The position numbers were made by a program, and so were the translations under genes. Positions 2,585 through 27,156 of a stretch of DNA of 64,000 nucleotides are shown one piece after another. The notes under the pieces are model-generated. The model was not told the origin of the DNA and ran no database searches. It saw only the letters and a list, made by a program, of their open reading frames with translations. Numbering within the stretch: position 1 is the stretch's first letter; every line of letters begins with the position of its first letter. Source of the stretch: a virus. Location of the stretch: positions 248,001 through 312,000 of the IMG/VR virus record IMGVR_UViG_3300031951_000003. One strand, written 5' to 3'.

Positions 2585-4720
2585 ATGTCAAATCCCGTTA
2601 TAATTATTGGTCAACAAAGAATTGTAAAAAAAACTGAGAAAATTTCTTTTTCCAATCCTACTGACTCTGTCATAACAATAAATTATCAGAAGAGTTCGAA
2701 TTTTCAGTGGGTTTACCAAGACGAAATACTACCTCAACAATCCAAAAGGATTTGGGCTGTTCCATCATCAATACAAATTCCAAATTACTTTTCTGAGAAT
2801 TTAGTTAGTCAAGATGACGGAGATATATTAAACATGATACAGACATATTCTTTGGGGGATGTTGTGAATGTCAACACCGAATCTTGTTATGTATATGAAT
2901 ACCCATATCCGTTTCCAGTCACTTTAAGAATTTCAAGTGAATATGCCTTACCACCCAACGTTAATATAGATTATAGAATTGCAACATACAATCCTCCTTA
3001 CATCGACCCAACAGTGTTCAACGGTATTCCTTGGACAAATTTAGTAACGAATTTTCAAGTTGGTGAGTGTCCCAATTATAACTTAGCAGGAACTGTTTAT
3101 ATCTCTTCTCCTTCTTTGGCTATCCAATATAGAGTGAGGGACTTATCTGACAATAGATTGAATTACTATTACATTATTTACCCTGAAACCTGTTTCGGAC
3201 CTGGAGAGGACCCTTGTAACATCAATTCAATACCTAGAATTTGGGACTTATTATTTTCTGGTTGTTCTATAGATGGTATTTCGATTTATTTATTTGAACC
3301 ATCCCAAATTCCCTTCGCTCAAGATGTTTGGATGGTATTGAAATCTCCTCCAGGAAACATAACCAACTGCACTACCCCAACTCCAACATCGACCGTTACA
3401 CAAACACCAACCAACACTCAAACACCAACAAATACTTCTACACAAACTCCAACGCCAACTAACACTCAAACACCTACCAACACCTCTACCCCGACTCCAA
3501 CGCCAACTAACACTCAAACACCTACCAACACTCAAACACCTACCAACACTCAAACACCTACACAGACCCCTCCTGTTTACTATTATTCAGCTCTTCTATG
3601 TGGGGACCCATCTTTCTTGAGATATTTCCGTTCGTCGAATCCAAATTTAACCGACAGTTGTTCTGTAATTTACGGTTATTGTGATGAGGCACCTCATACT
3701 GAATGTGGGGGAGTTCCTCAATGTTTTGATAATGTAAGCCCTTCGGTTGTCGTGAATTCGAATGATGTTTTAGAATGTTTCGATAGTTGTGAGTGTTGTC
3801 AGGGACTTTGTCCAACACCATCCCCAACTCCTACAATAAACCCGACCTCAACACCAACACCGACCACGACACCATCTCTAACCCCTACATTGACCTCAAC
3901 TCCTACATTAACTCCTACATCGACCTCGACCTCTACACCAACACCAACAACCAGTCCGACAGTCACAGGCACACTTACTCCTACACCAACACAAACGAGA
4001 CTTGCCGATTGTTATCAAAAAATTTATTTCGATGTAACATTAACTGAAACTTTTTTCAGTTACACAGATTGTTGTAGTGGAGAAGTAAATATCCTGAGCG
4101 TTGAAGCTGGTGTTGATTCTTGGGGTGCACCCGAGGGTTGTATAGAATATGGTTCAGTAACTGTTATTTCAGGTGAGTTCAATAATTTGTATTATAATTC
4201 ACCTTGTGCGTGTCCGACACCCACACCAACATTGACAGCCTCTAATACTCCAACTCCAACAACTACTAACACACCAACATTGACCGCTTCTAATACTCCA
4301 ACTCCAACAACTACTAGTACACCAACTAACTCACCAACAACTACCAACTCACCTACACCAACGCTTACACAGACTCCGACGGCCTCTGTAACTCAAACTC
4401 CTACACCAACACAAACAGAACCAACAGTTACACAGTCTGTAACACCATCTCAAACACCTACGCAATCATTTGTATTTTACCCTTATTCAGTTACCTCAGG
4501 ACAAACTTTTGTATCGATAGATTGTAATCCTGTTGTTTTAACTCAGACCTTATATGCCGCAGAATCAAGTTGGTATACAATTACCAAATTTTATTCAGAT
4601 TCAAACCTAACAACACCATACAATGGTAATGACTTGTATTATACCAACAACACTTTAGGTTCCTCCGATTGGTATAGAATCGCAACGAATGGTTCAATAA
4701 CTGATAGCTACGGTTGTTAA
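2585..4720 (+). CDS. PT-rich virion adhesin or structural protein
   Basis: 711 residues from the ATG at 2585 (an in-frame ATG at 2558 lies before the promoter-like motif). The first 260 residues form a beta-rich domain; then three low-complexity Pro/Thr/Gln/Ser linkers (about residues 262-329, 409-473 and 541-627) separate small Cys-containing domains. The linkers are built of repeats such as TPTNTQTPTP. Similar linkers occur in the genes at 57.3-64 kb, so this is probably one of a family of extended tail or surface proteins. There is no signal peptide, as expected for a virion protein. Function as a host-binding fibre is inferred from architecture only. Confidence 0.85.
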   Translation: MSNPVIIIGQQRIVKKTEKISFSNPTDSVITINYQKSSNFQWVYQDEILPQQSKRIWAVPSSIQIPNYFSENLVSQDDGDILNMIQTYSLGDVVNVNTESCYVYEYPYPFPVTLRISSEYALPPNVNIDYRIATYNPPYIDPTVFNGIPWTNLVTNFQVGECPNYNLAGTVYISSPSLAIQYRVRDLSDNRLNYYYIIYPETCFGPGEDPCNINSIPRIWDLLFSGCSIDGISIYLFEPSQIPFAQDVWMVLKSPPGNITNCTTPTPTSTVTQTPTNTQTPTNTSTQTPTPTNTQTPTNTSTPTPTPTNTQTPTNTQTPTNTQTPTQTPPVYYYSALLCGDPSFLRYFRSSNPNLTDSCSVIYGYCDEAPHTECGGVPQCFDNVSPSVVVNSNDVLECFDSCECCQGLCPTPSPTPTINPTSTPTPTTTPSLTPTLTSTPTLTPTSTSTSTPTPTTSPTVTGTLTPTPTQTRLADCYQKIYFDVTLTETFFSYTDCCSGEVNILSVEAGVDSWGAPEGCIEYGSVTVISGEFNNLYYNSPCACPTPTPTLTASNTPTPTTTNTPTLTASNTPTPTTTSTPTNSPTTTNSPTPTLTQTPTASVTQTPTPTQTEPTVTQSVTPSQTPTQSFVFYPYSVTSGQTFVSIDCNPVVLTQTLYAAESSWYTITKFYSDSNLTTPYNGNDLYYTNNTLGSSDWYRIATNGSITDSYGC

Positions 4721-4758
4721 AAAAACAAAAAACCCCACCAGTAGAAACTGACGGGGTT
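4721..4758 (-). terminator. Rho-independent terminator of the giant ncRNA
   Basis: AACCCC (4731-4736) pairs with GGGGTT (4753-4758), and within it CAGT pairs with ACTG around an AGAA loop. On the minus strand the hairpin runs directly into TTTTTTGTTTTTT (4719-4730, as rc), a textbook intrinsic terminator. On the plus strand it is followed by GGCAAAAAAC, so it does not serve the adhesin gene ending at 4720. Its direction shows that the upstream 1.15-kb gene-free stretch is transcribed on the minus strand. Confidence 0.9.
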
Positions 4759-5872
4759 GGCAAAAAACTCTGAGAATACAAGTTTTGGTGAGAATCTTTG
4801 GAAGGATTATGATTTCCCTTCGTTTCCACTTCCTTTTGAGAAGTAATCCTCAGTCACGGTCAATTAGATTAACCAATCCTTAAGTTGTGTACCACTCTCT
4901 CGTTACTCATCACTCTTCGAGGTTGCCACCCCAATTAATCCTTGCGGGATTAGAGAACTTTCAAGAAAATCCTGTCGGGCTTGGGACCCTTCAAGGCTAA
5001 GAACATCTCTTAACTATGTAGTGACCTGTCGCACACAACTGACGAGCACTTTTCCTTGTTTAATTTTGAGTTTGTTAAACCTTAATTAACAAAGTTGGTT
5101 TACGGATGATGAAAGTAGCGGCCCGTCTGAAGCCATGCCATCTTTTGGACGACACGATACTAAGCTACTCTCTGAAGTCTCCCGACCTCCATATTTTGAG
5201 TCAACTTCATAACTAACCTCTTGGTAGAGAGAAAGTTAAGGTTCCATCAGCACCACCTGTTATGAAACTTACCTTGTTCGGTGTTAAGCCAACTCTAATA
5301 TTGAATCACGCAATTACTATGGTGGATGCCATAGTTTCTTACATTAATCCTTCAGGTTATTCTTATTGGTGTTCCCACCTCAATCAAACGACCCGTATCG
5401 CTTGATTACCCAACCACGTTCCCTACAGTGTCACCCTCAGTACTAAAGGTCAGATAATATCCTGATTGCCTACTCGAGTTCCCTTTCGGAAACCGCAGAC
5501 CTCCCAAACCAGGGAGTTCCACTTTATACTATTTTCATAGTTTATTTAATGACCATAGGCGGCCAATATCTTGAACAGAATGTCTCAGAATAAACCCGAA
5601 GGTTTCATCATCAACTAACTGTGAAGATAATATCTTAATTCAAAGAACTTTCAAATTTAAAGGGAAGAAGAATCTTGACGACCATCCGAAGTTGGAACAC
5701 TTACAACTCCTCCCCTTCAATTGTTTCACAAAGTTAAGACACGTTTTTGGAACTGTCAAATCTTTTTGAAACTTTTTTTGACTTTTTCTGATTCGATTCT
5801 AATACCCCCCACTCTTAATGGGACAGGTTCAAATTCAGTCTTTGTCAAAGAACATACGACTCTCATCGTGTG
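4721..5872 (-). ncRNA. Giant structured noncoding RNA (about 1.15 kb), class unknown
   Basis: No reading frame of note lies here, yet the stretch has a perfect promoter (5878-5909) and a minus-strand terminator (4721-4758). Read on the minus strand it holds many exact helices: C(UUCG)G hairpin 5592-5605; GAAA tetraloop hairpins 5478-5493 and 5528-5541; hairpins 5501-5516, 5317-5334, 5071-5093, 4997-5013, 4936-4952 and 4828-4844; a 10-bp stem 5382-5407; an 11-bp stem 5660-5670 with 5707-5717; a long-range 10-bp stem 5031-5040 with 4883-4892; and 4803-4809 with 4844-4850. Several of these contain G-U pairs that would be A-C mismatches on the plus strand, fixing the strand. Size, tRNA neighbour and phage context recall the GOLLD and ROOL RNA classes; membership cannot be decided by eye. 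Confidence 0.85.
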
Positions 5873-5877
5873 TTTTA

Positions 5878-5909
5878 CAAAGATAAGAAGGTTTTTTTAA
5901 ACTCTCAAA
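5878..5909 (-). promoter_or_regulatory. Promoter of the giant ncRNA (TTTG-N20-TATCTTTG)
   Basis: On the minus strand TTTG (5906-5909) and TATCTTTG (5878-5885) are separated by exactly 20 bases, a full match to the Bacteroidota consensus. Expected start of the RNA is about 5872. It lies 10 bases beyond the tRNA-like gene, so the ncRNA can be transcribed on its own. Confidence 0.85.
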
Positions 5910-5921
5910 TCTTTTTTTTGT

Positions 5922-5992
5922 TGCGTCGCCTTGGAATCGAACCAAGCTAAGTGGGCTTATGAGACCCATGGAACACCTTGCCCCCCGCCCGC
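5922..5992 (-). tRNA. tRNA-Met-like gene, anticodon CAU, irregular acceptor stem
   Basis: The minus strand shows a perfect T arm (CTTGG-TTCGATT-CCAAG), an anticodon arm TGGGT-CTCATAA-GCCCA with anticodon CAU at 5959-5961, a five-base variable loop, and a D arm GGGG/TTCC with GG in the loop. The 3' acceptor strand is GCGACGC followed by A-ACA; CCA is not encoded. The 5' strand GCGGGC pairs well only at the first three positions, so the acceptor stem is broken or the G-rich run is an error. It could be elongator Met, initiator Met, or tRNA-Ile2 read with a modified C34. It may also be a decayed tRNA or a tRNA-like element. Confidence 0.6.
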
Positions 5993-5997
5993 AATAT

Positions 5998-6071
5998 AAT
6001 GATTAACTCCTACTTACCCCTCGGTCACCTATCCACGTCATGCGCTGGTTGAACCAGCAGGAGTCATCATT
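5998..6071 (-). ncRNA. 74-nt hairpin RNA element upstream of the tRNA
   Basis: On the minus strand two arms (6059-6071 and 5998-6011) pair over 12 bp with one small internal loop, enclosing a perfect hairpin GCTGG-TTCAA-CCAGC (about 6044-6058) and an unpaired G-rich stretch. It is tRNA-sized and six bases upstream of the tRNA-like gene, but it has no T arm or anticodon arm. It would be co-transcribed with the tRNA from the promoter at 6115-6146. Its role is unknown; a processing element or separate small RNA is possible. Confidence 0.55.
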
Positions 6072-6108
6072 TCAATATTTTTAAGAACTATGTTGTTTTG
6101 AAAAAGAA

Positions 6109-6156
6109 GTCCCACAAATATACGGAGATTTTCTCAAATAACCAAATTCGTGGGAC
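6109..6156 (-). promoter_or_regulatory. Promoter of the tRNA unit framed by an inverted repeat
   Basis: On the minus strand TTTG (6143-6146) and TATATTTG (6115-6122) are 20 bases apart, matching the Bacteroidota promoter consensus; the start would be near 6109. A perfect 7-bp inverted repeat, GTCCCAC (6109-6115) and GTGGGAC (6150-6156), lies exactly at the two outer edges of this promoter, suggesting an operator that could loop it out or a repressor site. Confidence 0.7.
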
Positions 6157-6163
6157 TATTATT

Positions 6164-6224
6164 TCGAGATTACTCTTTTATTCATCTCGAGTGTTTGGGG
6201 TGTTCGTCCTCTCGGACATGAACA
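6164..6224 (-). other. Two strong hairpins between the Nudix operon and the tRNA unit
   Basis: TCGAGAT (6164-6170) pairs with ATCTCGA (6184-6190). On the minus strand 6201-6224 folds as TGTTC-AT-GTCC-GAGA-GGAC-GAACA: two stacked stems with a GNRA (GAGA) tetraloop and a two-base bulge. They lie in the 3' flank of the Nudix operon. Neither is followed by a T-run, so they are not classic terminators. They may be a 3'-UTR structure or part of the RNA locus. Nothing else was seen between 6225 and 6276. Confidence 0.5.
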
Positions 6225-6276
6225 TATAAATATTCCGAAAAGTTCAAAAAGTAACCCTAAGAAAAAATATTTTTTT

Positions 6277-6381
6277 TTAGTGGTCCAAATCGTCAACCAT
6301 TCTTCTGAGTTGTCTCATCATATCGAACCATCCTATGATTCCTATAACGATGACAAACATAATTAAACCTAATACAATCAT
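6277..6381 (-). CDS. Small membrane protein, 34 aa
   Basis: The start codon overlaps the stop of the Nudix gene (ATGA), which argues for real translational coupling. Residues 2-19 are a hydrophobic segment of Ile, Val, Leu and Gly followed by a charged tail ending in D-D-L-D-H. A single-pass peptide of unknown function. Confidence 0.6.
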   Translation of the reverse strand: MIVLGLIMFVIVIGIIGWFDMMRQLRRMVDDLDH

Positions 6382-6797
6382 TGTAAAATAATTTCAGCTA
6401 ATTTATACATATAGTCACCTGTGTTTTCAGCACGGATTTCATCGAAACTGAAATACTTCCAATCAGTATGTTCTTCTCCGTCAATGGCTTTCTCGAAATC
6501 TGGTTCAATACATTCTTCAACAATTAACAAATACACATACATCAACCCTTTAACTTTTTTACCGTCACGAGTGTGTCTTGGAATGAGTCCAATAAAAGTA
6601 ATTTCTTGGTCATCGATACTAACCGCTGTTTCTTCGAAAAATTCGCGTTTGGCACCTTCTTGTGTTGTTTCATTTTCTTCGAGTTTTCCACCTGGAATCG
6701 ACCACATACCTGGGAAAGAACCGAGATTGTTTCTTTTACATAGTAAAACTTTATCCTTACATTTTACCATAATTCCTACATAGCTTTGTTGTTTCAT
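6378..6797 (-). CDS. Nudix hydrolase
   Basis: 139 residues, the size of a single Nudix domain. The Nudix box G-x5-E-x7-R-E-F-x-E-E-x is complete at about residues 37-59 (GKLEENETTQEG, then KREFFEETAV), with Thr in place of the usual last Gly. The family hydrolyses nucleoside diphosphates linked to another group (oxidised dNTPs, NDP-sugars, capped RNA); the substrate cannot be told from sequence. Start at 6797 lies 14 bases from the divergent start of the DUF192 gene. Downstream it overlaps a small membrane-protein gene by four bases. Confidence 0.9.
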   Translation of the reverse strand: MKQQSYVGIMVKCKDKVLLCKRNNLGSFPGMWSIPGGKLEENETTQEGAKREFFEETAVSIDDQEITFIGLIPRHTRDGKKVKGLMYVYLLIVEECIEPDFEKAIDGEEHTDWKYFSFDEIRAENTGDYMYKLAEIILQ

Positions 6798-19784: not shown

Positions 19785-22110
19785 CGCTTGCTAACATTTC
19801 CAATTTTTCTAATTTCCTTTCATGGAAATCTAAAAGGGTGGATTGTTCTTTGATTGCCTCTAAACAAGCTGATATAATCGTTTCAAATCTTATTGATAAC
19901 ATTGTGGTTTCTGGGTCTTCATAAACGAGTTCAGGAAATACCAACTGCAACTCTTGTGCAATAAAACCTATCTGAAGTAACTCGGGTCTTTCATCATCTT
20001 TTATTAGATGGTAGGAAACACCTCTAGTCTTTAATATTTTGTCCAAACTATCTGTAATTGGTCTGATATTAGTTTTGAACCTTAAATCCGATGGTCCAGG
20101 TGCACCTGATGCACCTTGTGCCCCTGTTGGTCCTGTGCCACCTTGTGGACCAGTTCCACCACCTCCACCTTGAGCACCTTGTGGACCTGTTCCTCCTGTT
20201 CCACCACCAGTCCCTTGAGCACCTTGATTACCCGTAGGACCGGTTGGTCCTCCAGGACCTTGAGCACCTTGTGCACCTTGGTTTCCATTACCTTGTGATG
20301 GACCTTGGGCTCCTTGAGAACCAGTTCCACCTCCTCCACCAGGAGGTCCTGTGTGACCTTGAGCTCCCTGTGGACCTCGGTTACCCGTTGGTCCGCCAGG
20401 ACCCTGAGCACCTTGTGCTCCGCCAGGACCCTGAGCACCTTGTCCACCTTGAGAACCTTGAGCTCCTTGAGCTCCTGTTGCACCACCACCACCTTGAGAA
20501 CCTTGTCCTCCCTGTGAACCTTGGGCTCCTTGGTTTCCACCACTGCCTTGAGCTCCTTGCGCACCTTGTCCTCCTGCCGGTCCTTGTGCTCCTTGGTTAC
20601 CTTTACCACCTTGAGCTCCTTGCGCACCTTGTCCTCCTGCCGGTCCTTGTGCTCCTTGGGCTCCTCCTGGGCCTTGAGCTCCTTGCGCACCTTGTCCTCC
20701 TGTTGGTCCCTGAGCTCCTTGGTTACCTTTACCACCTTGTGCTCCTTGAGCACCTTGTCCTCCTTGAGAACCTTGTGAACCTGTGGCACCTACAGGCCCC
20801 TGTGCTCCTTGTGCTCCCTGTCCACCTTGTGAACCTTGACCACCTTTGGCACCTTGTGAACCTTGTCCTCCTTGAGCTCCTTGTCCACCTGTTGGTCCTT
20901 GTGCTCCTTGATTACCACCCGAACCTTGCGCTCCTTGAGCTCCTTGTCCACCTGTTGGTCCTGTAGCACCCTTACCACCTTGAGAACCTTGTCCTCCTTG
21001 AGCTCCTTGTCCACCTGTTGGTCCTTGAGCTCCTTGATTACCACCCGAACCTTGCGCTCCTTGAGCTCCTTGTCCACCCTGTGAGCCTTGGGAACCTGTG
21101 GCACCCGCAGAACCTACTGGACCTTGTGCTCCTTGGCCTCCCTGCGAACCTTGTGAGCCCGTGGCCCCTTGTGCACCTACTGGCCCTTGAGCTCCCTGTC
21201 CACCTTGTGAACCTTGGGAACCTGTGGCTCCTGCTGAACCAACGGGACCCTGAGCTCCCTGTCCACCTTGTGAACCTTGTGAACCTATGGCACCTTGTGA
21301 ACCTTGTCCACCTTGAGCTCCTTGTCCTCCCTGTGAACCTTGGGAACCTGTAGCTCCTTGTGACCCAACTGGTCCTTGTGCTCCTTGACCTCCTTGTGAC
21401 CCTTGGGAACCAACCGCTCCCTGAGAACCTGTGGCACCTTGAGCACCTTGACCTCCTTGTGAACCCTGAGAACCTGTAGCACCTTGTGACCCTACCGGCC
21501 CTTGAGCACCTTGTCCACCTTGTGAACCCTGAGAACCGACCGCTCCCTGTGAACCTGTGGCACCTTGAGCACCTTGACCTCCTTGTGAACCCTGAGAACC
21601 AGTATCGCCTTGTGCACCTATTGCACCCTGAGCACCTTGACCACCTTGTGCGCCTTGTGGACCTACAGCACCTTGGGAACCTTGTGAGCCAGTAATACCT
21701 TGAGCCCCTGTTGGACCTTGTGCTCCTTGACCCCCTTGTGAACCTTGAGCACCTTGACCACCTGTCACTCCCTGGGAACCTTGATTTCCTTGAGCACCTT
21801 GTCCCCCTTGAAAACCAATACTACCTTGAGCACCAGTTGGTTCTCTATTACCAACCCATCCTGTAGAGTTGATAAGTGTTCCTGCTGAATTTTTTAAACT
21901 AGTTGTTATCTTGAGGTTACTATTGTAAGTTACAAATGAAGGTTTATCACTTCTCCAAGCAAGATAAACAATATTACTATTATCTGTCCAATGCAAATGT
22001 AGTAGTGGTGAATCGTCTTCAAGCTTCAAATATGTTGAGGTTGAGCCAGAATCAACGAATTCGACCGTGGGAAACGCATAATCAGGATATATTATTATAT
22101 TTTCAGACAC
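19768..22110 (-). CDS. Collagen-like fibre with S74 intramolecular chaperone
   Basis: 780 residues. An N-terminal beta domain (1-85) is followed by about 590 residues of uninterrupted Gly-X-Y triplets, mostly GAQ, GSQ, GGQ and GPT, and then a C-terminal S74 domain starting at SDLRFKTN with [15 protein letters not shown] and a final coiled coil. S74 domains trimerise fibres and then cut themselves off just before the Ser of the SD motif. The product is therefore expected to be a trimeric collagen-like tail fibre. It overlaps the upstream paralogue by eight bases. Base composition is much richer in GC than the neighbours because of the Gly/Ala/Gln codons. Confidence 0.92.
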
Positions 22111-25100
22111 TTAAATTATCTTTTAAAATTTTTATTCTCTCCATTATTGAGATTATTCTTTTCTGTTGTTCTTGAAGTGCACCAATACCCAAACTTACCA
22201 TAAGACCATATTCAACTGATTTAAAGCCCTCCTCGTCTGTCCAAACAACTTCTGGGACGATATCTTCAATTTGCTGTGCAATAAAACCTATTGTTTCACC
22301 AGTAAATGCACTTGGAAGAGATATTGCACGGTTCATTGATATTTTAGGATGGTCAACCCATTCGAATCTAACACCCTCAATACCTTTAACTTTTTCTAAT
22401 ACATTTGTTAAGGATTGAATATTATCTTTAAGTCTTTGGTCTGAAGGTGGACCCTGAGCTCCTTGAGCTCCTTGACCTCCTGTTGGACCAGTTCCACCCT
22501 GAGGACCTGTAGGTCCTACGTTACCTTGAGCACCTTGACCACCTTGGCCCCCACCTGAACCTGTAGCACCTTGGGCACCTTGACCCCCTTGACCACCACC
22601 CGAGCCTTGAGCCCCTTGGGCTCCCGTAGCTCCTGGTCCTCCACCAGGCCCCACTGCTCCTTGGGCACCTTGTCCTCCTGTTCCTCCTGTAGGTCCTGTT
22701 GGTCCCTGTGCTCCTTGGAATCCTGTTGCACCTCCCCCTCCTGTTCCACCTTGAGCCCCAACAGGACCCTGAGCGCCTTGAGCTCCCTGAGCACCACCCT
22801 GTGCTCCTTGAGCACCTGTGGAACCACCTCCACCTTGGCTTCCTTGAGCACCTGTAGTTCCACCTTGAGCTCCTTGAGCACCTGTTGGTCCTTGAGCACC
22901 TTGGTTACCTTGTGCACCTTGGTTACCACCTTGAGCTCCTTGGGCTCCTTGTGAACCTTGGACACCAGGAGCACCTTGTGCACCCGTATTTCCTCCTTGG
23001 GCTCCTTGAGCTCCTTGTGAACCTTGGACACCAGGAGCACCTTGTGCACCTGTTGAAGCTCCTTGAGCTCCCTGAGCCCCTTGAGAGCCCTGAACACCAG
23101 GAGCTCCCTGTGCTCCCGTTGAACCACCTTGAGCTCCTTGGGCTCCTTGGGCACCCTGATTACCTGTCGCACCTTGGGCACCTGTTGAACCACCTTGAGC
23201 ACCCTGTGAACCTTGTGCCCCTTGTGCTCCAGTATTACCTTGAGCTCCTGTATTGGCTCCTTGTGCTCCTTGAGCACCTTGTGGTCCTTGTGCACCTTGG
23301 TTTCCTTGTGCACCTGTATTGGCTCCTTGTGCTCCTTGAGAGCCTTGAGCTCCTTGAGCACCTGTATTACCTTGAGCTCCTGTATTGGCTCCTTGTGCAC
23401 CTTGAGCACCTTGTGGTCCTTGTGCACCTTGGTTTCCTTGTGCACCTGTTGAAGCACCCTGTGCACCTTGCGCTCCCTGTCCTCCTTGTGAGCCTTGACC
23501 ACCTTGAGCACCTGTTGTTCCTCCTTGGGCTCCTTGTGCTCCTGTTCCACCTTGAGCTCCTTGACCTCCTTGTGCCCCCGTGGTTCCCCCTTGGGCTCCT
23601 TGAGCACCCTGTCCTCCTTGTGAACCTTGAGCTCCTTGGGCTCCTGTTGTTCCTCCTTGTGCTCCTTGAGAACCTTGTGCACCTTGTGCTCCAGTTGAAC
23701 CCTGAGCACCTGTTGTTCCTCCTTGAGCTCCTTGAGCTCCTTGTCCTCCTTGTGCCCCCTGTGCACCCTGAGCACCTGTTGTTCCTCCTTGGGCTCCTTG
23801 TGCACCTTGTCCTCCTTGGGCTCCTTGTGCACCCTGAGCACCTGTATTAGCTCCCTGAGCTCCTTGTGAACCCTGTCCTCCTTGTGCTCCTTGAGCTCCT
23901 TGAGCACCAATTGTTCCACCTTGAGCACCTTGAGCACCTTGTCCTCCTTGTGCACCTTGTGAACCCTGAGCACCTGTGTTAGCTCCTTGAGCACCTTGAG
24001 CTCCTTGACCACCTTGAGCTCCTTGACCACCTTGAGCTCCCGTATCCGCTCCTTGAGCTCCCTGTGCTCCCTGTCCACCCGTAGCACCTTGAGCTCCTTG
24101 AGGTCCTATCGAACCTTGTGAACCTTGAGCACCTACATTTCCTATTGCTCCCTTAGCACCTTGAGAACCTTGCGCTCCTTGAGCACCTATTGACCCCTGA
24201 GAGCCTGTAGTTCCTGAAGCACCTTGTGCTCCTTGAGCACCGGTAAATCCAGATATACCCTCAGCAGGTCCTACCCATTCGCCAACTTCATTAATCATTT
24301 CTATACCACCCACATACAATCCATATATTCCTCCGGTGACCTTTGCACCATCAACGAGTAATTCAGCTCCGATAGTTGCTATGTTACTTTTTGTTGTTGA
24401 TGAAACTTGGATATTTCCAGAACCATTAACAGATAATTGTATTTTGTCCGCGGATGAAATCCCTTCAAATTCCATATGAGGGTTAGGGTTTCCACCACTT
24501 TTACCATTGGGATATATTATAACGTCAGACATTAATTAAGAAGGTTTTCAAGTTCATTTATTTGTTTTTCGATATCTGATATAAATACTTGTTGCTCTTT
24601 AATACCTTCAATCAAAACGGCGTTCATTCTATTATATTCAACAGTATAAAAACCATCAGAACCGATTTTAACTACTGTCGGGAAAAATTCTTTAACATTT
24701 TGAGCTATCAGACCAATCGAGTGAAGCTTGTTATTGTTTAATCTTTTAATGTAATCGCTTTTCGTCAACTTTTCATTCCAATCGTATTCTACGACTCTAA
24801 GTTCAAGAATTTTTTCAAGTGTATTATCAAGTGATTTAACATTATATTTGACTCTTCTATCAGAGCAGCTGCCCCCGTATGTAAAATAACCATTGAAGTT
24901 AGTAGAACCATAATACAAATATGTAACACCAATCGTAATTGAACCATAGGTCCACTGAAATGTTGAGTTTTGACAAGTTGTAACATCTGAAGCGAGTTGG
25001 ATGCTAAAATTTGCTTGCCAGTTAATATCTTGGGAATAAACTGTTCTGTTTTGACATGCCCCCGCGTTTACACAAATGGCGTAATAAGAATCACCACATA

Positions 25101-26890
25101 GATTCTGAACAAAACAAGAGGTGAACGAGCCAGGTCCTGTTGCACCTTGTGCACCTTGGGCTCCTTGTCCTCCCGTAGGACCCGTAGGACCCGTAGGACC
25201 ACCCGACCCTTGTGCACCTTGGTTACCCGTAGGACCAGTAGGACCACCTGGTCCTTGTGCACCTTGGTTACCTTGAGGTCCTGTTACACCTGGTGCACCT
25301 TGAGCACCTTGACCTCCGTTTGGACCTTTCGGTCCAGCAGCTCCTTGCGCCCCTTGGCTACCCGTAGCACCCCCACCACCTTGAGGACCTTGAGCACCTT
25401 GAGCACCCTGACCTCCTGTTCCACCTTGTGGTCCTGGAGCACCTTGAGCACCTTGATTTCCTGTTGCTCCTTGTGCACCTGGATGACCTGTAGCACCCTT
25501 ACCACCCTGTGAACCCTGAGCACCTGTTGCTCCCTGAGGACCAATTGCACCTGTATTACCCCCTGCACCTTGTGCACCTTGTGGTCCTGTGGCACCTTGT
25601 GCTCCTGGATGTCCTGTTCCTCCACCAGAACCTGTTGGACCTTGTGGTCCTGTGGCTCCCTGTGCTCCTGGATGTCCTGTTCCTCCACCTGAACCTTGAG
25701 GACCTTGTGGTCCTGTGGCTCCTTGTGCTCCTGGATGTCCTGTTCCTCCACCCGAACCTGTTGGACCTTGTGGTCCTGTGGCTCCTTGTGCTCCTGTATG
25801 ACCAACGGCACCTTGAGCACCTTGAGGTCCTGTTGGTCCTGTTGCTCCTTGAGCTCCTGGATGTCCTGTGGCTCCTTGAGCACCCGTCGAACCTGCATTA
25901 CCTGTAGCACCTTGAGCACCAGGGTGACCTGTGTTTCCTGTTGGCCCCTGTGCACCTTGTGGTCCTGTAGCACCTTGAGCACCCGCATGACCCGTCGCAC
26001 CTTGTGCCCCAGTAGAACCAGCATTCCCCGTAGCACCTTGTGCACCTGGATGACCTGTATTTCCTGTTGGTCCCTGTGCTCCTTGTGGTCCTGTAGCACC
26101 CTGAGCACCAGCATGACCCGTCGCACCTTGTGGTCCTTGAGCCCCTTGAGGACCTGTAGCACCTTGAGGTCCTACTGCACCTGTAGAACCTGTAGGTCCT
26201 TGTGCACCTGTATTACCTGTGGCTCCTTGTGGGCCAACATTTCCTTGTGCTCCTGTATTACCTTGTGCTCCTGTGTTACCTGTGGCTCCTTGTGGTCCTA
26301 CGTTACCTGTAGCCCCGGTAGCTCCCTGAGCCCCTGTGTTACCTGTGGCCCCTTGTGGTCCAACATTTCCTTGTGCTCCTGTATTACCTTGTGCTCCTGT
26401 ATTACCTGTGGCCCCTTGTGGACCAACATTTCCTTGTGCTCCTGTATTACCTTGTGCTCCTGTGTTACCTGTAGCTCCTTGAGCACCTGTATGACCCTGT
26501 GCACCTGTATTTCCTTGTGCTCCTGTATTACCTGTGGCCCCTTGTGGTCCAACATTTCCTTGAGCTCCCGTGTTACCTTGCGCTCCTGTGTTACCTGTGG
26601 CTCCTTGTGCACCTGTATTACCCTGTGCACCTGTATTTCCTTGTGCACCGGTATTTCCCGTGGCTCCTTGTGCACCTGTATTACCCTGTGCACCCTGGGT
26701 TGTGCCTTTAGCACCCTGTGCCCCTTGGGGTCCAACCTGACCTTGTGCACCTGTATCACCTTGTGCACCTTGTATTCCTTGTAACCCTTGTGCACCCAAA
26801 TTTCCCTGTGCACCCGTATCACCCTGTGCACCTGTATTGCCCTGCGCACCTTGGTGACCCTGAGCCCCTTGAGCTCCTGCAATACCTGTG
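20100..26890 (-). repeat. Collagen-like Gly-X-Y coding repeats in three tandem genes
   Basis: Three long blocks of nine-base units coding Gly-X-Y (commonly GGTGCTCAA-type codons) fill most of 20.1-26.9 kb. Larger periods are visible: roughly 33-51-base modules such as [13 protein letters not shown] and [15 protein letters not shown] recur with small changes. These tracts create long shadow frames on the other strand and are likely recombination and slippage hot spots. Confidence 0.9.
22103..24532 (-). CDS. Collagen-like fibre with S74 intramolecular chaperone
   Basis: 809 residues with the same plan as its neighbours: N-terminal beta domain (1-88), about 600 residues of Gly-X-Y with frequent GAQGAQ and GGTTGAQ modules, then an S74 domain from SDQRLKDN with [16 protein letters not shown] and a C-terminal coiled coil ending in a short basic tail. 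The Gly triplets are often interrupted by double Thr (GGTTGAQ), which would add kinks. It shares one base with the upstream gene and overlaps the downstream one by eight, so all three are probably made from one mRNA. Confidence 0.92.
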
Positions 26891-27156
26891 GTTGGTCCAA
26901 TCCAATCCAAAGTTCCATCAATTACTTGAACTGAGTCAATAGCAAAATAATCAGAAACATTAAGCGTTACAACACCAATTGTTTGGCTAGAACGGTCAAT
27001 AACTAATTGATTAGTAACTGATGCTGAGCTAAGATTAATCTTACCCGTTGGCACAACTCTCCAAACACTTGTTCCACTGTTAACCCAATTTATATAAGGG
27101 ACTCTGTCTGGTGTTCTAGAAATGGAATTACTCGGAACTATTAAAATATCACCCAT
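24532..27156 (-). CDS. Collagen-like fibre with extra Cys-rich domain and S74 chaperone
   Basis: 874 residues, first of the three fibre genes. N-terminal domain (1-95), about 565 residues of Gly-X-Y ([15 protein letters not shown] and GHPGAQ modules), then, unlike its paralogues, an inserted Cys/aromatic domain of about 90 residues (from [13 protein letters not shown] onwards) before the S74 domain at SDRRVKYN ... [16 protein letters not shown]. The inserted domain sits where the fibre tip would be and is the best candidate for receptor contact, as S74 is removed after folding. TTGTATTTATA precedes the gene by 19 bases. Confidence 0.92.

Follow-up and report, generated by a model that had tools for sequence, protein, structure and literature searches.

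The minus strand of the window (the whole 64-kb stretch analysed, positions 248001-312000 of a virus record of 321,139 bases) encodes a new member of the known RNA class GOLLD. GOLLD itself thereby gains one more member; the new part is the boxA-headed stable-RNA array in which the gene lies. The joint explanation that we favour, and hold with good confidence, is that this is the GOLLD gene of a 321-kb phage, with transcription that would start at the promoter named P2 below, antitermination through a boxA-like element and assembly of the RNA into a cage. The features of the array are as follows:

6115-6146, minus strand: P0, promoter of the stable-RNA array, TTTG-N20-TATATTTG (exact pattern match)
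6080-6088, minus strand: degenerate boxA-like sequence GTTCTTAAA after P0 (in some relatives GCTCTTTAA or GTTCTTTAA)
6006-6064, minus strand: structured RNA motif of 59 nt with the nearly invariant core GGTNCAACCAGNGCATGACNTGGATNGGTGAC, between the promoter with its boxA-like element and the CAT tRNA
5920-5998, minus strand: atypical CAT tRNA with an irregular acceptor stem (ARAGORN, at relaxed threshold only)
5878-5909, minus strand: P1, the promoter named in the original prediction, TTTG-N20-TATCTTTG (exact pattern match)
5804-5853, minus strand: short P1 unit, consisting of the boxA-like GTTCTTTGA (5853-5845) and then the conserved AACCTGTCCCATTAAGAGTGGGGGGT (from sequence)
5729-5760, minus strand: P2, the GOLLD-proximal promoter, TTTG-N20-TAACTTTG (exact pattern match)
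5649-5724, minus strand: transcribed leader with a long hairpin (11-bp stem 5717-5707/5670-5660), before the boxA-like element (predicted start site)
5640-5648, minus strand: boxA-like sequence GTTCTTTGA within the GOLLD transcript (resembles an element of Bacteroidota 16S leaders; putative function)
5571-5639, minus strand: variable insert that contains a C(UUCG)G site and separates the boxA-like element from the 5' domain (alignment gaps)
5173-5570, minus strand: GOLLD 5' domain of about 400 nt (conserved in 34 aligned sequences, covarying helices)
4767-5172, minus strand: GOLLD 3' domain (full-length match to RF02032)
4721-4758, minus strand: intrinsic-terminator-like hairpin, 12-pair stem 4758-4731 followed by a T tail (hairpin scan)

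The whole 64-kb window was scanned with the Rfam covariance models, a search that the original prediction had proposed, and GOLLD (RF02032) was the sole match above gathering cut-offs. The match runs from 5172 to 4767 on the minus strand and covers the complete model (1-416/416; 322.1 bits against a cut-off of 150, E 1.9e-91). The RNA had been suggested to be either a member of GOLLD or ROOL or a new class; GOLLD stands and the other two fall away. ROOL gave no match at the gathering cut-off in the window, nor at E values up to 10 over 4400-6400, and OLE, HEARO and raiA were ruled out along with it, there being no Rfam match to any of them in the window. Hits to L10_leader (28 bits) and PyrR (23.7 bits) were below the cut-offs of their own models and located on the terminator side. 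The size of about 1 kb and a 5' half lying outside the Rfam model would suit ROOL or a giant RNA of a new class, but the full-length RF02032 match, the missing ROOL match and a 5' domain common to other RF02032-positive phages make this extremely improbable. Phage origin and proximity to a tRNA, both traits of GOLLD, are also seen here, with a CAT tRNA upstream of the RNA in the virus record, which holds one GOLLD copy.

All seven near-identical IMG/VR contigs carry a GOLLD match of the same score as that of the window. The 718-aa neighbour protein is 100% identical across them, and they represent one phage, or a near-identical one, recovered from several samples. Twelve of twelve more distant contigs also exceed the RF02032 cut-off; since both groups were fetched with GOLLD-derived patterns, these counts are to be read as confirmation and not as frequency. 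Among 49 contigs with a relative of the 718-aa protein, many of them short, a GOLLD match was found in five and was above the cut-off in four. A strict-pattern scan of genome contigs for GOLLD found none, which, owing to the strictness of the pattern, is no evidence of absence.

The interval had been predicted to hold no credible reading frame, and among ORFs of at least 50 aa only one of 59 aa and one of 82 aa lie inside or reach into it. Relatives differ by indels across the RNA interval (judged by eye), and no conserved frame was seen among them on an inspection in which frames were not scored systematically. Protein coding was rejected on the basis of the short ORFs and the indels; a coding signal, which had been named beforehand as evidence against the RNA, was looked for and did not refute it. 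For comparison with relatives, at least 155 fetched loci with the 3' pattern, several of which cover the same place, were reduced to 61 distinct loci whose sequence extended 700 nt or more upstream and included 420 nt or more of the 3' domain. Thinning at 90% identity left 35, of which 34 (L104 was left out) were aligned from the upstream promoter to the terminator, and RNAalifold predicted a structure of 228 pairs on these 34 sequences. Pairing cells amounted to 96.4% (82.0% in shuffles); 145 of the 228 pairs changed on both sides (95.1 in shuffles, 0/500 as high), as did 1143 cells (316 in shuffles, 0/500 reaching this), where the shuffles do not keep relatedness. With partners slid by 1-3 columns, at most 64 pairs and 198 cells changed on both sides, a comparison that favours the structure over its slid versions since it was derived from the same alignment. 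The lack of covariation that would have spoken against a structured RNA was therefore not found.

Individual helices of the original prediction are likewise present on the minus strand: 5660-5670/5707-5717 with two G-U pairs, the hairpin 5382-5391/5398-5407 with one (6 of its 10 pairs changed on both sides) and the long-range stem 4883-4892/5031-5040 with one (8 of 10 changed). Its UUCG and GAAA loops were also recovered, with two CTTCGG sites and eleven NGAAAN sites counted. The comparison shows more RNA structure than expected by chance, with covarying helices throughout both domains, and the RNA very probably folds as GOLLD. Nothing was found in favour of an interval that is not an RNA gene at all (degenerate coding sequence, regulatory DNA or an attachment site), and the chance of this is close to nil in view of the covariation on both domains, the presence of a promoter and a terminator-like hairpin, and the indels noted by eye between relatives.

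RF02032 models the 3' domain only, and alignments show a second conserved domain upstream (5570-5173), which holds an invariant GAAA-loop hairpin. A separate 5' domain directly upstream, less conserved than the modelled part, is a trait of GOLLD, and this one agrees with it. A sequence profile of this 5' domain found LR745206.1 (E 9.8e-66) and LR756502.1 (E 5.6e-57) and weakly matched two Acinetobacter phages (E 4.3e-4 and 1.2e-3). It was not found in four of the eight loci tried (two Mycobacterium, one Streptococcus and one DSS3_MAL1 phage), and all eight passed the RF02032 cut-off. LR745206.1 and LR756502.1 (L326 and L327) carry GOLLD with the same type of 5' domain in phage genomes of 634 and 642 kb. 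Upstream of the 5' domain, the gap pattern of the alignments shows that the insert at 5571-5639 is absent from several relatives. Folding of 10 relatives placed a hairpin at the corresponding position of the leader in each, with differing sequence and length.

In PMC12286853, GOLLD env-38 is described as a hollow homo-14-mer cage resolved by cryo-EM, with a 5' domain of residues 1-420. The RNA of the window resembles it in its full 3' domain match, its separate 5' domain of ~400 nt, its phage-borne location and the adjoining CAT tRNA, and the invariant GAAA-loop hairpin possibly corresponds to L11a of that description. It differs in its longer leader and the hairpin insert before the 5' domain, env-38 having been likened by description and not by sequence, and also in its boxA-like element and tandem Bacteroidota-style promoters. 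ROOL, according to PMC12286853 and PMC7567579, is large, phage-borne, found near tRNAs and able to form RNA cages (cage formation per PMC12286853). It is similar to the present RNA in these respects but differs in that no ROOL model matched here, and its sequence and secondary structure are described as distinct (PMC12286853).

The strict promoter pattern (spacer 19-21) has seven matches in the 64-kb window. Three exact TTTG-N20-TAnnTTTG sites, which we take to be the Bacteroidota promoter style, are arranged in tandem on the minus strand as P0 (6146-6115), P1 (5909-5878) and P2 (5760-5729). A boxA-like element occurs within 110 nt after three of the seven strict promoters, all in the array, and the other four are without one. 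The original prediction had an RNA of ~1.15 kb start from its own promoter at P1. A promoter of its own was retained and P1 does match the pattern exactly, but P2 replaces it as the start because it is nearer and a promoter match occupies the equivalent position in all 10 aligned relatives; the GOLLD transcript is therefore likely to span about 5724-4721, with a length of roughly 1.0 kb. The predicted terminator exists as a 12-pair hairpin with a T tail, but the scan by itself found no more than chance (1 found against a shuffle mean of 1.4). What supports it is its position at the 3' end together with equivalent hairpins with changed arms, seen by eye, in several relatives.

A boxA-like element beside GOLLD, of the form GTTCTTT[GA], was identified in 61/61 distinct full-length viral loci among the matches listed. 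It takes the form GTTCTTTGA in 57, GTTCTTTGT in three and GTTCTTTAA in one of these listed loci, and in 59 of the 61 (among the matches listed) it is located 12-94 nt past the end of a promoter -7 box. Within -650..-350, an interval that can take in P1 elements as well, GTTCTTT[GA]A occurs in 59/61 loci among the matches listed, compared with a mean of 0.7 and a maximum of 3 in shuffles. The sequence GTTCTTTG lies 380-530 nt upstream in 59/61 loci, again among the matches listed, the exceptions being L123, with GTTCTTTAA at -480, and L169, with GTTCTTTGA at only -245. The distance from the element to the 5' domain varies in the alignments. A boxA-like sequence comes after each of the three promoters, in degenerate form in the case of P0. 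The element recurs after P1 and, as GCTCTTTAA or GTTCTTTAA, follows P0 of relatives, with no GOLLD core directly after it.

A boxA as a universal feature of GOLLD was rejected, as five of six GOLLDs checked outside the main set (AM24 and Papyrus left out) lack the element beside the RNA. LR745206.1 is the one that has it, with GTTCTTTGA right before GOLLD; it is not beside GOLLD in LR756502.1, which itself has Bacteroidota-style promoters, or in Acinetobacter phage Herod, Mycobacterium phage Weiss13 and Streptococcus phage Javan636. For DSS3_MAL1, none was found beside GOLLD, and GCTCTTTGACAATT occurs about 1.5 kb upstream, heading a tRNA-GOLLD-tmRNA array. This array (L333, 591-3025) contains tRNAs, a GOLLD 3' domain enclosing tRNA-Arg, and tmRNA.

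A different reading accepts the GOLLD RNA but takes GTTCTTTG as a structural piece that pairs with an AAGGA conserved in the 3' domain, and not as a boxA. The near-invariance of the element and the three loci with GTTCTTTGT rather than GTTCTTTGA, both among the matches listed, agree with this, and RNAalifold indeed pairs GTTCTTTG with AAGGA (columns 906-911, helix 1), with 98.5% of cells paired. However, no pair of this helix changed on both sides, and it is because GTTCTTTG almost never varies in GOLLD that RNAalifold can pair it with AAGGA. The recurrence of the element after P1, and of its variants after P0 of relatives, without a GOLLD core, its absence beside the GOLLD of LR756502.1 and an Acinetobacter phage, its varying distance to the 5' domain and the matching sequence in many 16S leaders also argue against such pairing, which we consider unlikely, and a boxA-like role is preferred.

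The comparison with host rRNA leaders served as an independent check, for which Bacteroidota genomes were taken by a 16S-start pattern and the leader was defined as within 270 nt of this pattern (109 among the matches listed). The pattern GTTC[AT]TT[GA]A is present in 62 of these 109 listed leaders (shuffles: mean 0.98, maximum 4) and absent from the remaining 47, and exactly GTTCTTTGA occurs in 19/109 among the matches listed. Leaders differ from the phage element, which has T, in favouring A at the fifth base (GTTCATTGA type; 43 to 19 among the matches listed). On a recount of 105 leaders among the matches listed, a promoter match stands before the element (within 110 nt) in 45 of the 59 having it. 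The spacing is similar, the element starting 21-108 nt after the -7 box in those 45 leaders and 12-94 nt after it in 59 GOLLD loci, in both cases among the matches listed; the product differs, being rRNA there and GOLLD plus tRNA-like RNA here. The boxA-like element thus matches the rRNA-leader element of Bacteroidota; by promoter and boxA style, the sole basis for an assignment, the phylum of the host is probably Bacteroidota.

From the presence of the element before GOLLD, its match in 16S leaders and its recurrence after P1 and P0, we infer that these phages may transcribe GOLLD with rRNA-type antitermination of the host. NusB, S10 and partners are the host rRNA antitermination factors and counter Rho. 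According to the mechanism proposed here, RNA polymerase would start at P2 and may also read through from P0 and P1, and the boxA-like element would recruit these factors, which would prevent premature termination of the untranslated 1-kb RNA by Rho. The GOLLD RNA would then accumulate late in infection and assemble into a hollow homo-multimeric cage like the env-38 14-mer; cage formation by the RNA of the window is proposed by analogy. As the stable-RNA array also carries a CAT tRNA, the likeliest guess for a cargo is tRNA or something related to translation. PMC7567579 describes GOLLD as rising in lytic growth and, for one Lactobacillus brevis prophage, as not required to produce phage. In searches of open-licence papers, none was seen to connect GOLLD with antitermination or boxA.

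Three further elements accompany GOLLD in the array. The neighbouring tRNA noted in the original prediction is present, with a CAT anticodon, but it is not a standard one, having been missed by ARAGORN at default settings and reported at the relaxed threshold. The same form of the tRNA (TTGCGGGCGGG...GCGWCGCAAC) is found again in L009/L030 and in L123/L161, which represent two further divergent phages. An ordinary tRNA-Met(CAT) lies upstream of P2 in L032, L033, L035, L096, L098 and L099, most of them with C1 opposite A72, a mark of initiator tRNAs (L096 differs). The tRNA of the window is 82.3% identical over about 61 nt to the tRNA-Met of Aeromonas phage 1233, and this phage was rejected as a GOLLD relative because the match is to tRNA-Met.

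The core pattern of the 59-nt motif was found in 48 IMG/VR stretches. Across 24 distinct contexts, a promoter match lies upstream in 23 and CTCATAA downstream in 19; four of the five contexts without CTCATAA end within 62 nt, while L341 lacks it. In a set of 11 sequences, 5 of the 16 predicted pairs show changes on both sides, mostly owing to the single sequence L009, and the outer stem shows some covariation. The motif gave no Rfam match over the cut-off, and a sub-threshold Fluoride hit (14.8 bits against 34, 6051-6078) overlaps it. The short P1 unit, to which similar sequence occurs in L035, L033, L032, L098, L096 and L099 and is absent from L030, may represent either a small RNA or a leader of GOLLD.

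The broader proposal, slightly better than even in our estimate, is that Bacteroidota phages carry the 59-nt motif, the CAT tRNA, the short RNA and GOLLD as one stable-RNA array. As many as three promoters would stand in tandem in it, with a boxA of rRNA type after each, and the phage would borrow host antitermination so that the RNA cage is produced in amounts similar to those of rRNA. If true, this would link GOLLD, which belongs to a small number of RNA-only cages described so far, to how the infected cell manages its ribosomes and tRNAs. A conserved antitermination signal of host type would explain how a kilobase of untranslated RNA is made in quantity by a phage, and mutation of the boxA would be a simple handle for lowering GOLLD in cells. 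It also suggests that GOLLD should be studied jointly with its companions in the array, the tRNA and the small RNA motif.

Elsewhere in the window, two large proteins of 809 and 874 aa are encoded at 22103-27156 on the minus strand, and many of their PHROG matches are to tail fibre and collagen-like families.
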